A stretch of DNA of 64,000 nucleotides from NCBI GenBank assembly GCA_943788725.1, contig CALSRJ010000005.1, positions 62,001 to 126,000 on the forward strand. Reading direction: 5' to 3'. This DNA comes from an uncultured Flavobacteriales bacterium. GTDB taxonomy: Bacteria; Bacteroidota; Bacteroidia; Flavobacteriales_G; Salibacteraceae. The position numbers and the translations under genes are program-made. The notes beneath the pieces are model-generated. The model searched no databases, had not been told where the DNA came from, and saw nothing but the letters and a program-made list of their open reading frames with translations. Shown one piece after another: positions 47,707 through 52,818 of this stretch. How positions within the stretch are numbered: position 1 is the first letter of the stretch; the number at the start of each line of letters is the position of its first letter.

Positions 47707-48693
47707 ATGGAACACTTTAGAACAGAGGTTGAAGCGCCGGAATTTCCCTTTTTCATCGACCATGAAAGTCGGGTGGTGATGCTGGGATCTTGTTTTGCAG
47801 AGAACGTGGGAGGTCGCCTCCAGCAAAACAAAATCGAGACGCTCATCAATCCATTCGGGATCCTGTTCAACCCATTTTCCATCATGAATGCCCTGGAGCG
47901 CATGCTCAACAATCGACCTTATTCCAATGAGGATCTGATGCAAGTGGGCGAACAATGGGTCAGCTTAGACCACCACGGGAGTTTCAACCATACCAACGCA
48001 GATACTTGCGTGGAAGGCATCAACGCATCCTTGACCAATGGCGCGGAGGCGTTGAAGAAAGCAGACACGCTCTTCATTACGCTGGGCTCAGCCTGGTTGT
48101 ATGAACACACCGCAAGCGGTCGCACGGTTGCCAATTGTCACAAGATCCCAAACAAGGAATTTAGGAAGCGCCTCCTTTCCTTTCAGGAGGTGCACCTCAT
48201 TCTGCGGCACATTCCCGACTTCTTGCGATCGAAGGGAATCAAGGCGAACGTGGTCTTCACGGTGAGTCCCGTTCGGCATTGGAAAGATGGAGCCGTAGAA
48301 AACCAACGTTCCAAAGCCCACCTAGTCGCAGGAGCCCACGCGGTGGTTGATGAATTCGATGCTTGCCACTACTTTCCTGCCTACGAAATGTTGATTGACG
48401 ACCTGCGCGACTACCGCTTCTATGGCGCTGACATGTTGCATCCTTCTCCACAGGCGATCGACTATGTCTGGCAAAAATTTGAGACGAGCTTCTTCTCCGA
48501 CGAAACGCGGATCATGGGGAACGAATTGAAGGCCATCATGCAAGCGGTTCAACACCGACCCATGGATCCGGAGAGCAATTCCTTTCAGCGGTTTCTAAAA
48601 AAGCAGATCGACATCATCACAGCGCTCGAAAAGAAATACCCCAGCCTAGATCTATCCAAAGAAAGAGAGCACTTCAAGGGGTATCAATTCTAA
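47707..48693 (+). CDS. GSCFA-domain protein
   Basis: VVMLGSCFAENVGGRLQQNKIETLINPFGILFNPFSI; TLGSAWLYEH; ADMLHPSPQAIDYVW. Confidence 0.92.
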   Translation: MEHFRTEVEAPEFPFFIDHESRVVMLGSCFAENVGGRLQQNKIETLINPFGILFNPFSIMNALERMLNNRPYSNEDLMQVGEQWVSLDHHGSFNHTNADTCVEGINASLTNGAEALKKADTLFITLGSAWLYEHTASGRTVANCHKIPNKEFRKRLLSFQEVHLILRHIPDFLRSKGIKANVVFTVSPVRHWKDGAVENQRSKAHLVAGAHAVVDEFDACHYFPAYEMLIDDLRDYRFYGADMLHPSPQAIDYVWQKFETSFFSDETRIMGNELKAIMQAVQHRPMDPESNSFQRFLKKQIDIITALEKKYPSLDLSKEREHFKGYQF

Positions 48694-49634
48694 AGTTTTG
48701 GACCGTGAAGTCGGGCCAAATATTCCTGTTCCGTTTGACCTGGAGTAGGATGGTATTCGACGTTGTTCACCCCTAGAGCATCCAAGTCCATGATCGTCGA
48801 GTAGCCGCTTCGGGCAATGATCAGATCTGCGGATACCAGCGCCTCGGCTAATCGTTTATCACCCATGTGATGTACCACCTTGAGTTGGTCGATCTGACTT
48901 TCTTTCGGCTCGTCGGGTTTCCCTTCTAGGATCAAAGCGCGTTCACCACTTTCGATCAATCGCCGCGCGACTTCTGCTTCGAAGATGCTCCGCTGGGGTT
49001 CGGGGCCGCTGATGGCCGCTACTACTTTCATAGGGTCCGCCCCTTTGGGTACCACCTTGCCATCAAATCGACTCAAGGGACCGATGTACCGGTAGTGCTT
49101 TGGCATGTTGTCGGGATGAGAGAGATCCCCTGCCAGTCCAGGAGATTCGGCGTGATCCGGTATCCACACTTCGTCGTATTGGTTCATCACCCAATGATTG
49201 AGCCGGTTGATGAGTCCTTCAAAGCGTGGACTCATGATCTTGATTTGGTGACTCACGAAAACGCATCGGCAATGCCGTGACCACAAACCAAATCTGGAAT
49301 CGGAAATGACCAGGTCAATCGACTCAGATCGGATGAGTCGCTGCAACTTCTGATGTTCTTTCCAAATGCTGGCCATCAAACCCAAGCCATGCCAAGTGAA
49401 GTGGCGCACCATGTTTCCATCGGCGGGATAGGTGATGGTTTTGAAAGGGAATGCAACAAAACGAAGCGCGGGAAAATGTTCCTGAAGCAAAGCCAACGGG
49501 CCACCGGAAGCGGCCACCATGACTTCATGCCCCAAATCCAATTGCTGTTGAATCAGTGGTATACACCTCGCGGCGTGACCTAATCCCCAATGCAGAGGAG
49601 CGACGAGTACGCGCTCAATCTTAGGGGTGTTCAT
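48690..49634 (-). CDS. Glycosyltransferase, MurG/GT28-like
   Basis: VLVAPLHWGLGHAARCIPLIQQ start and ALVSADLIIARSGYSTIMDL...TPGQTEQEYLA C-terminal part. Confidence 0.8.
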   Translation of the reverse strand: MNTPKIERVLVAPLHWGLGHAARCIPLIQQQLDLGHEVMVAASGGPLALLQEHFPALRFVAFPFKTITYPADGNMVRHFTWHGLGLMASIWKEHQKLQRLIRSESIDLVISDSRFGLWSRHCRCVFVSHQIKIMSPRFEGLINRLNHWVMNQYDEVWIPDHAESPGLAGDLSHPDNMPKHYRYIGPLSRFDGKVVPKGADPMKVVAAISGPEPQRSIFEAEVARRLIESGERALILEGKPDEPKESQIDQLKVVHHMGDKRLAEALVSADLIIARSGYSTIMDLDALGVNNVEYHPTPGQTEQEYLARLHGPKL

Positions 49635-49637
49635 AGA

Positions 49638-52097
49638 TCAACGAGCGATGTTGAAGGCTTCTATCAAGGTGCTTCCATCACTGAGTTCTACCTGGAGGAA
49701 GTAGGATCCTGAAGGCAATATTTGCACGTCGATGGTTCGATCCGTGGTTTCTGTCTGCACGGTTACGGTGCGACCCAGTTCATCCAAAATAGTCAGCTTG
49801 GCAATGCGTTGATCTAAACTCAATCCTATATGCAATGCATCCGAAACCGGATTCGGATAGAGCACGAGCCCTGAGCTGGATGGTTCATCTACTCCCACTC
49901 CCGACCAACTGTCTTCGTTGCTGAGGGCAGAGCTGCCGGCCGGATTAATTGCGAAGACGCGGTAGTAGTATTCGGTCCCCAGCATGCTTACGTTCGGGTC
50001 GCTGTAGGTGGTGCTGTTGAAGGCTACCGTATCAATCGGGGTAAAGCTGCCGTTGCCTCCTACGGACCGCTCAATCACCCATTCGTTTTCATTGGTAAAG
50101 GGATCGTTCCATGACAGATCGATGGAGCCGGTAGGGAATTGGGGAGCTACGCTCAGCACAATATCATTACCGACGGGGGCAAGTGGGTTCACAATGCTAA
50201 ACACGCCTGGATTGTAGTTGAAGAACACGTTGTCAGCCGCCTCTACTCGAACGCGGTTTCCACCGCCTAGGTTGTTAGCCATTAATACGAACGCGCTTCC
50301 TGTATTCGGCACATCGGCGGCCAATGTATCCGAGAGAGTGAGGCCGTTGTTGTCGTACAGGAGGATGTGCACACTCTGGCAATTAATGGGGCTTTGGTCG
50401 GTGCCAGCGACGTCCCATTCTACTTGATAATAGACCCCGCTTTGGGCTTGTCCCCCGGTCGGTGGTGAGGTCACTATGAATGGGCCTTTGTTGCCGTCTA
50501 CTTCCATCGAAACTTTATCATAGGCCACGCCTCCGCCAGCGATGTTGTTGTCTCGAACGGTTAGGCGAAAATTCAAATCCCTAGAGTAGGTAGGATAGAT
50601 CTCACCATAGGCTAAACTGCCTGTCAGAACGGAAATCAGCCGAGGGAAAGTACGTTCGCCATGGTCAACAGGATCCCATGATCGGAAAATAGGAGCGTTT
50701 AAGCTTGGGCTTTGGGGATTGCCCTGAGGGCCAAAATCTATTTCTTCCCAGCAATAGCTCAGGTCATCGCCTTCGTTATCGCTTGCCGAACCCCTGAGCA
50801 CGAAAGGAGTTTCTTTAGGTATAGAATAGGATGCGGGGTCAATAGCTACTTCAGGCGCCGTATTTCCAGTGCTGGATTGCTGACTGCATCCATTTCCGCC
50901 ACCATTAAATGCGTACTGACCCATACTGTTGTAGGATCCCGCATTGAAGTAGTCGTCTGAATTGTTTTGTAAATTCTGTGGGGAGCAAATGCCGGCATAG
51001 GCCATGATGGTAGATCCACTTCCTGGCTCAAGTCTATCGCTTGAAGAAAAGCTAGCATTCGACGAGCAGGATCCTGCACTGCCGTTGTAGGAATGCGGCC
51101 CGCCGAATTGGTGCCCCATTTCGTGGGATACGTAATCGATATCAAAGGGATCGCCTGTTGGGCTATTGATGCCTGTAACGCCGCTCGCTTTACTTCCACC
51201 ACACACAACACCTAGCCCAGCGAGTCCACCCCCACCGGTGCTGAACACATGCCCGATGTCATAACTGGAACTGCCTACGAGGCTATTAAGAACATTAGCG
51301 TTGACATTGATCATTTGACCAGGACTGTTATTTTGATAGGGGTCGGTGGCTGCGTTCAAAAAGATCAGATCATCATTGTTGCCGATCAACTGCATGGTGA
51401 TCGAAAACTCTCTTTCATACACGCCATTTATCCGGTTCATAGATACCACCATGGCGCTGAGTACTCCCGAAGTAGTTCCTCCGTGGAAGGAAGCATACTC
51501 ACCCGTGCAAGCCAATGCCAAGCGGTAGGTTCTCAAAATCTCACCCGATTGCCTTTCGCCTCGGGCCATTTCTACCTCTGCAGGGCCGGATTGGCCACTG
51601 TCGTCCAACAAACATTGGTGGTCTTTGGTATGCTTGTAAAATTCGACGTAGTCTTTGCGGTTGTAGGTGTGGTAGGTCTGCGCTTCATTTCCGATGGGGT
51701 CAATGTACAGCGTGCCATTTGTCGTGAAGAGGATGGCGTGAAACCCTTTGTCAGTATATCCGATACGGCCACTCACGCCTTTGCCTTTCACCTTGTAGGT
51801 TTTGATGTTGGGGAAGCGCTCCGCTAGTTCGGGAGCCATGATTGGACTTTCATACGCTTGCAATTCCAGGTGGTTTCCCGAAGGATCAGGCAGGGTGATG
51901 GTCACGCCAGCAGCGCGTCCTGCCTCAGACAACGAGGGAGCATCAATGAGACTGGATTTTACACCGTCGTCATCAATGGTATAGATATAGGAGGTGTAAC
52001 CCGTCGTCAGGGTGTTGACCTGATTGATCAGGCTTTGAGCAGTGAGGCTCAGGCTGGCTGTGAGCACCACAAGTGTTGCGAAGTATCTGTTTTTCAT
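49638..52097 (-). CDS. Secreted reprolysin-like (M12B-type) zinc metalloprotease with propeptide, Fn3-like domain and T9SS sorting domain
   Basis: HEMGHQFGGPH zinc motif (51093-51125), upstream YRLALACTGEYASFHGG, C-terminal LVLYPNPVSDALHIGL...GSYFLQVELSDG. Confidence 0.92.
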   Translation of the reverse strand: MKNRYFATLVVLTASLSLTAQSLINQVNTLTTGYTSYIYTIDDDGVKSSLIDAPSLSEAGRAAGVTITLPDPSGNHLELQAYESPIMAPELAERFPNIKTYKVKGKGVSGRIGYTDKGFHAILFTTNGTLYIDPIGNEAQTYHTYNRKDYVEFYKHTKDHQCLLDDSGQSGPAEVEMARGERQSGEILRTYRLALACTGEYASFHGGTTSGVLSAMVVSMNRINGVYEREFSITMQLIGNNDDLIFLNAATDPYQNNSPGQMINVNANVLNSLVGSSSYDIGHVFSTGGGGLAGLGVVCGGSKASGVTGINSPTGDPFDIDYVSHEMGHQFGGPHSYNGSAGSCSSNASFSSSDRLEPGSGSTIMAYAGICSPQNLQNNSDDYFNAGSYNSMGQYAFNGGGNGCSQQSSTGNTAPEVAIDPASYSIPKETPFVLRGSASDNEGDDLSYCWEEIDFGPQGNPQSPSLNAPIFRSWDPVDHGERTFPRLISVLTGSLAYGEIYPTYSRDLNFRLTVRDNNIAGGGVAYDKVSMEVDGNKGPFIVTSPPTGGQAQSGVYYQVEWDVAGTDQSPINCQSVHILLYDNNGLTLSDTLAADVPNTGSAFVLMANNLGGGNRVRVEAADNVFFNYNPGVFSIVNPLAPVGNDIVLSVAPQFPTGSIDLSWNDPFTNENEWVIERSVGGNGSFTPIDTVAFNSTTYSDPNVSMLGTEYYYRVFAINPAGSSALSNEDSWSGVGVDEPSSSGLVLYPNPVSDALHIGLSLDQRIAKLTILDELGRTVTVQTETTDRTIDVQILPSGSYFLQVELSDGSTLIEAFNIAR

Positions 52098-52101
52098 AGG
52101 T

Positions 52102-52710
52102 TTATCGATATGAGCCGTCGCGAGGCGCACTTGGGGGCAAGGCCTCTTCGGTATAAACGGCGTAATAAGTTTTGCTTCCTTTTAGGATGGGTGAGATGAG
52201 GTGCTTCGTCCCGGTTCCGGTAATTTCTGCGAAGAGCCCTTCTTCATTCGTGTCAAGCCGGACACTCAGTTTTCCATCGGCGGATTTTCCTTTGTAACTC
52301 CGGATCTCCGGAAACTTTGCTGCTAATGCTGGGCTCATGGTCTGTGCATCCACAACAGTGAAAGAGACCAATCCATCCAACGTAGGCAGCACCACCTCCA
52401 TGTTTTCTTCGTCCAACGCATAGGTTAATTGATCAAAGTCACAGACATAGGCATCAAACGATGAAAGCTCAATGCGGTGCTCTTGGTCGGGAAGTGAATA
52501 GGCATCTCGTTTTACCCAAAGGACTTCGGTATCTGCCTTCTCTTCAACCTGCCGGTTGTCATCAGCAGATGTTGCGGCTCCAGCACCGATAAGCTGAGCG
52601 GAATCTTCAACTTGCACTACGGGGGTTTCAGCCCCATCGCTTCCTTTTCGCTTGGAAGAAGAACACGCGGTTAGGCAAAGGCAAAGCAGAATCGTTAGGT
52701 ATTTCAGCAT
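52102..52710 (-). CDS. Lipoprotein consisting of a stand-alone homologue of the metalloprotease propeptide
   Basis: Lipobox LCLTAC; VVLPTLDGLVSFTVVDAQTMSPALAAKFPEIRSYKGKSADGKLSVRLDTNEEGLFAEI aligns with ITLPDPSGNHLELQAYESPIMAPELAERFPNIKTYKVKGKGVSGRIGYTDKGFHAIL of the next gene. Confidence 0.8.
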   Translation of the reverse strand: MLKYLTILLCLCLTACSSSKRKGSDGAETPVVQVEDSAQLIGAGAATSADDNRQVEEKADTEVLWVKRDAYSLPDQEHRIELSSFDAYVCDFDQLTYALDEENMEVVLPTLDGLVSFTVVDAQTMSPALAAKFPEIRSYKGKSADGKLSVRLDTNEEGLFAEITGTGTKHLISPILKGSKTYYAVYTEEALPPSAPRDGSYR

Positions 52711-52818
52711 AGCGGGCCCAAATATATCATCAACGAACCCAAACAAGGGGAGTAGTATGAAAGTTTACTTGGAAAGCCATCCATTGCAAGGCCGCCAAGT
52801 TCTGCACATCTTTGCCCC

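Follow-up and report, generated by a model that had tools for sequence, protein, structure and literature searches.

A free-standing lipoprotein copy of a metzincin prodomain is encoded beside a predicted type IX secretion metalloprotease in Bacteroidota

Introduction

How bacteria with a type IX secretion system (T9SS) protect their own periplasm from folded, activity-competent proteases is little understood. In the window analysed here, a 64,000-nt stretch of DNA from an uncultured Flavobacteriales bacterium (contig CALSRJ010000005.1), a gene for a small lipoprotein lies directly upstream of a gene for a secreted zinc metalloprotease, and an earlier note on this DNA read the lipoprotein as a free-standing copy of the protease propeptide. 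The locus raises the question of what a detached propeptide does beside a protease that has kept its own.

Results and Discussion

Domain organization of the pair

The coordinates, strand and spacing given for the pair in the earlier note are correct: the lipoprotein coding sequence (202 aa), supported by its translation and by homologues in other genomes, runs from 52710 to 52102 on the minus strand, and the protease (49638..52097, minus strand, 819 aa) starts 4 nt further on with an ATG at 52097. A longer protease frame, starting with a GTG at 52130 and overlapping the end of the lipoprotein gene (52098-52130, minus strand), was rejected since the ATG at 52097, followed by a signal peptide, is the better start. 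The protease is an M12B, reprolysin-like enzyme in which the signal peptide is followed by an N-terminal domain, a linker with Cys162 (51612..51614, minus strand), a catalytic domain and a T9SS type A sorting domain. The N-terminal domain, the in-cis propeptide, covers residues 21-148 (51654..52037, minus strand) as delimited by alignment, profile comparison and model. The catalytic domain (50913..51536, minus strand) matches Reprolysin_4 (PF13583, 1.8e-32) and contains the HExxHxxGxxH zinc motif of M12B reprolysin-like enzymes as HEMGHQFGGPH (51093..51125, minus strand); no other Reprolysin_4 protein is encoded in the genome. The C-terminal domain (49668..49862, minus strand) matches Por_Secre_tail (6e-11) and TIGR04183 (2.2e-9), and the T9SS component SprA is encoded in the genome (SprA_N 5e-163); from both, the protease is predicted to be T9SS cargo, as had been proposed.

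The lipoprotein consists of four parts, all on the minus strand: a signal peptide with the lipobox L-T-A-C16 and SSSKRK after the Cys (52663..52710), a fast-evolving low-complexity linker (residues 17-62, 52525..52662), a prodomain-like domain (residues 63-186, 52153..52524) recognized by sequence matches, AlphaFold2 and Foldseek, and a C-terminal tail (residues 187-202, TEEALPPSAPRDGSYR, 52105..52152). The protein ends at about the place of the conserved Cys162 in the partner propeptide. Residues 1-62 have a pN of 0.17 vs 0.053 in the domain, and in one pair of genomes dN/dS was about 0.06 in the lipoprotein domain and 0.12 in the propeptide; the domain of the free copy is under purifying selection at least as strict as that on the propeptide. 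Searches of Pfam, NCBIfam and PADLOC gave no match for the lipoprotein. Neither its domain nor the in-cis propeptide domain is present in Pfam or NCBIfam, and therefore such genes would today bear no family name. Separately, a Cys at lipoprotein residue 90 (52441-52443, minus strand), in the first core strand, is invariant in the genus and in G015 (C28, alignment A1) and is absent from free copies of other families.

Homology and predicted fold

The lipoprotein matched its partner protease by BLASTP with an E-value of 2e-6 (28% identity over 94 aa), and when the whole genome was searched with the lipoprotein, the partner's propeptide was the only second match (6.9e-4). A profile-profile comparison (hhalign) of 13 lipoproteins with 14 propeptides, a check that the earlier note had proposed, gave a probability of 98.7% and an E-value of 2.7e-16 over 100 columns. 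These three results rule out chance similarity, and the block that had been noticed in both proteins is real. The homologous region extends beyond the block first listed, taking in the strand 'FDAYVCDFDQL' / 'YTSYIYTIDDDGV' and also the N-terminal 'R.I.P..Y' motif when the comparison is with class-wide propeptides. In the lipoprotein, the M12B-type prodomain is complete and follows a lipoprotein signal and a linker.

The AlphaFold2 model of protease residues 21-419 (pLDDT 89.2, pTM 0.89) had four ADAM17 chains as its best PDB matches in Foldseek (451-479 columns, E 1e-9 to 3e-8), three of which are zymogen or prodomain constructs, with the alignment spanning both the prodomain and the catalytic domain; pro-fragilysin entries ranked after ADAM17. 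Since the model aligns with ADAM17 zymogens over both domains, the N-terminal block is, by predicted fold, a true metzincin prodomain placed before the catalytic domain, in agreement with the earlier reading. The ADAM17 and pro-fragilysin prodomains have the same domain order and predicted fold as the in-cis propeptide of the window, and they differ from the free copy in being part of the protease chain.

The lipoprotein model (pLDDT 86.7, pTM 0.80) is disordered only in its last 7 residues (pLDDT <50). Its top PDB match was the ADAM17 prodomain (8snm, prob 0.90). ADAM17 entries filled four of the first five Foldseek rows, the best E-value being a weak 0.018. Six further rows were short chains of 6o38 (prob 0.87-0.98, TM about 0.5, E 0.15-0.8), the CpaA-CpaB complex; because of their length (117-130 residues), the matched chains would be CpaB and not CpaA. 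Neither the lipoprotein domain nor the propeptide had a meaningful sequence match to solved structures, the CpaB chains included. The best 50 Foldseek rows of the lipoprotein model held no potempin structure.

Distribution and origin of free-standing copies

Across 1237 genomes in total, the surveys for free copies and orphans detected 40 free-standing copies, distributed over six families of Bacteroidota. The lipoprotein is present in 12 of 13 genomes of the window's genus and in one other genus of the same family; further copies belong to families f37 (13), f51 (10), f24 (2), f29 (1) and f63 (1). Every one of the 40 lies directly upstream, on the same strand, of a protease whose own propeptide is this same domain. 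Within the genus the neighbourhood varies (an SDR and a methyltransferase gene, a ferredoxin oxidoreductase gene, or other genes) and the pair is constant. The survey of relatives that the earlier note had suggested thus found the pair kept well beyond the genus.

The fused form is far commoner than the free copy, and most proteases of this family are partnerless. In a sample of the class, the domain was found in 99 of 395 genomes, with a free copy in 11 of these 99 and none in the other 88; in a sample of the phylum, 3 of 78 genomes had a free copy, each within the window's class. One member of the window's genus (G001) retains the protease and has no lipoprotein. Among the 1237 genomes searched there was no true orphan free copy. 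The candidate in G542 is the front part of a broken protease and still has the Cys, and that in G063 is a disrupted protease; G394:C66 and G256:C59 are proteases at contig edges, and by position G913 and G900:C166 likewise look like contig-edge proteases.

Some proteases of the family are themselves unusual. In G542 the protease is in pieces (L165 3755-5258, plus strand): the propeptide and its Cys come first, and the zinc motif lies in a frame of its own after them. The partner protease in G005 (L036 1419-4013, minus strand) has the zinc motif HEMGHQFRGNH, with Arg for the usual metzincin Gly, and its free copy is intact. Some genomes have two to nine family-protease matches (L096 3820-10508, plus strand; G511, G850, G900), with no free copy among them.

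For none of the 40 free copies was the propeptide of its own protease the nearest relative, which rules out recent tandem duplication in each genome; judged by these comparisons, the free copies are ancient paralogues of the propeptides. Trees constrained to a single free-copy clade beat the free search (lnL +8.6 and +9.1; p-AU 0.62 twice). Many independent origins are thus unsupported, a single clade fitting better, and the alignments do not reject one common origin for the free copies, although with 116-120 columns the tree result is no proof of it.

Latch residue and C-terminal tail

Metzincins can be kept latent by a cysteine-switch latch. A Cys between the last strand and the catalytic domain is present in 80 of 82 propeptides, at a median offset of +15 from the last-strand Tyr; in the partner protease it is Cys162, invariant in alignment A2. 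This feature of the prodomain has no match in the free copies, none of which (0/40) has a Cys at the latch position. Instead, 33 of the 40 have an aromatic-(x)-Glu/Asp motif at +13 to +16, mostly a few residues from the C-terminus. The Cys is the one systematic difference between propeptides and free copies.

We read the propeptide Cys as a candidate cysteine-switch latch and the free-copy tail as filling that position in another way. The switch itself is something that we infer, because the Cys sits in a low-confidence stretch of the protease model; such a switch is described in Tannerella forsythia mirolysin (PMC8259862). Coordination of zinc by the tail cannot be general, because the window's copy and its sister, which end in Tyr-Arg, and a few other copies are without the acid. 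In the window's copy, therefore, such a role could fall only to the terminal carboxylate or to other side chains.

Membrane anchor and location

The lipid Cys is followed by polar or basic residues, CSSSKRK here and CSSSKKK, CKSNRQ or CGSSKK in relatives. The acidic export signal by which Bacteroidota surface lipoproteins are recognized (LES, as defined in PMC5080379) is absent after the Cys in the lipoprotein forms examined, and the lipoprotein therefore probably faces the periplasm. A lipobox was recognized by eye in about 28 of the 40 free copies. In the other 12 or so, mostly from f51 (9 of its 10), the signal peptide is of the plain type or the lipobox is not clear; the anchor would thus be useful but not essential. 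The membrane tether postulated in the earlier note is thus predicted for the window's copy and for most others, and it is not constant across the free copies.

Proposed function

The most economical reading, in our view, is a role in trans. We propose, with about even confidence, that the lipoprotein is a metzincin prodomain which, detached from its protease chain and tethered to the membrane, acts on the adjoining protease and keeps it latent before export. As the 4-nt spacing suggests, the two proteins would be synthesized together and would both cross the inner membrane. The lipoprotein, given its lipobox and the absence of a surface-export signal, would stay anchored and face the periplasm. 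Its prodomain, by homology and fold, would dock on the prodomain-binding face of the catalytic domain, and its flexible C-terminal tail may lie in the active-site cleft, as the CpaB tail does in CpaA. Until its export by the T9SS, the protease would thus be kept latent, and possibly folded, within the envelope; the tethered copy would then remain behind.

The lipoprotein might instead be a dedicated folding or secretion chaperone with no inhibitory purpose, escorting the protease to the T9SS as CpaB does for the type II system (T2SS) or in the manner of Lif foldases. The possibly CpaB-like predicted fold, the adjacency and the tether in most copies fit this account, and deletion of cpaB abolishes CpaA secretion (PMC4713064). 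We consider it somewhat unlikely here, since the protease retains a complete propeptide of its own and the free copy is absent from G001 and from 88 of the 99 domain-bearing genomes, so that folding and export generally need none. Because the protease has its in-cis propeptide, most relatives are partnerless and the G001 protease stands alone, an added guard appears preferable to a needed foldase; this ranking is tentative, as sequence cannot separate the two.

A prodomain fold should bind a catalytic domain, and with the lipobox of most copies this would also suit a receptor that retains the mature protease for use at the membrane. Such a role is improbable, given that about 12 of the 40 copies are without a lipobox and that no surface-export signal follows the Cys, whereas the protease is predicted T9SS cargo. 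We give an equally low probability to a copy that has drifted to another job, such as sensing or defence against a foreign metalloprotease, and is adjacent by history only: its high divergence from the partner's propeptide would be expected, but the adjacency of all 40 copies, held in several genomic contexts within one genus, and the lack of orphans in 1237 genomes argue against it. That the lipoprotein is a non-functional remnant of a propeptide duplication is very improbable indeed. The existence of unpaired proteases shows that they can do without it, yet purifying selection (dN/dS about 0.06) already contradicts decay, as do the residues invariant across the genus, the deep age and the intact signal peptides.

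Comparison with known systems

The earlier note knew of no described two-gene system of this type. This needs correction, for such systems exist: potempin/KLIKK (PMC7296668), CpaB/CpaA (PMC7542363, PMC4713064) and Spi/SpeB (PMC2873492). Potempins are lipoproteins that are encoded upstream of the T9SS-exported KLIKK proteases of T. forsythia and inhibit the co-expressed protease (PMC7296668). They share with the window's pair a small lipoprotein gene directly upstream of that for the protease, in their case in an operon; they differ in that the KLIKK literature cited does not describe them as prodomain copies, and the lipoproteins upstream of KLIKK proteases have no significant similarity even among themselves (PMC4404884).

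CpaB of Acinetobacter is N-terminally tethered, encoded adjacent to CpaA and needed for its stability and secretion, and its C-terminal tail blocks the CpaA active site (PMC4713064, PMC7542363). The adjacent gene, the N-terminal tether and the single dedicated metzincin are shared, and the predicted fold may be similar; adjacency to a metzincin protease, as for CpaB, was found for 40/40 free copies, with a predicted lipid anchor in most. CpaB differs in that it has a transmembrane helix, is encoded downstream of its protease and serves the T2SS, whereas the protease here has its own propeptide and T9SS sorting domain, and sequence matches to the solved chains are lacking. Spi of Streptococcus pyogenes is a propeptide-analogue inhibitor encoded next to SpeB (PMC2873492), and thus likewise a free-standing analogue of a protease propeptide with an adjoining gene; SpeB is a C10 cysteine protease, of another class, and Spi is not a lipoprotein in that description. 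In Bacteroides fragilis, the Bfi proteins are staphostatin-like inhibitor candidates co-transcribed with C10 proteases (PMC2873492). They resemble the present case in being small candidate inhibitors from Bacteroidota that are exported or lipoproteins and are co-transcribed with a protease, and differ as relatives of the lipocalin-like staphostatins with no significant identity to propeptides. By analogy, the nearest models would be CpaB in mechanism, potempins in genomic arrangement and Spi in evolution.

The class of mechanism is thus known, and what is new is the combination: a propeptide-derived, lipid-anchored partner in a T9SS setting, beside an in-cis propeptide and with the latch exchanged. 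A partial literature search found no description of a T9SS reprolysin that has a free-standing prodomain as its partner. If the proposal is true, the pair would give the T9SS a dedicated propeptide-derived partner, one for which that search found no description, and would widen the potempin concept to include a lineage derived from propeptides. An ancient prodomain copy that is always beside its protease and lacks only the latch residue also makes a simple two-gene test case. A broader idea, which we consider doubtful, is that detached metzincin prodomains form a general class of partners dedicated, in the envelope, to exported metalloproteases. CpaB, a chaperone that was presented as novel, might on this view be another detached prodomain; it and the Bacteroidota copies would then be of the same kind, having arisen by prodomain duplication or detachment, and in Bacteroidota the exchange of the latch Cys for an aromatic-acid tail would give reversible latency in trans on top of the in-cis propeptide.

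Transcription context

A TATATTTG box (52719..52726, minus strand), 8 nt before the lipoprotein ATG, may serve the pair as a Bacteroidota -7 promoter element, with a TTG 17 nt upstream of it (region 52719-52746, minus strand); the box and the upstream TTG fit the Bacteroidota promoter pattern. The sequence TATATTTA/G is kept in five members of the genus within an otherwise divergent intergenic region, and the TATATTTG motif by itself is no rarer than chance in the window. As a promoter, the box would leave almost no leader. In this region, promoters of the sigma-70 type and terminators were no more frequent than in shuffled sequences. A glycosyltransferase-like gene (48690-49634, minus strand), which does not adjoin the pair in other lineages, begins 3 nt past the protease stop, and in the window's lineage the pair may share a three-gene transcript with it.
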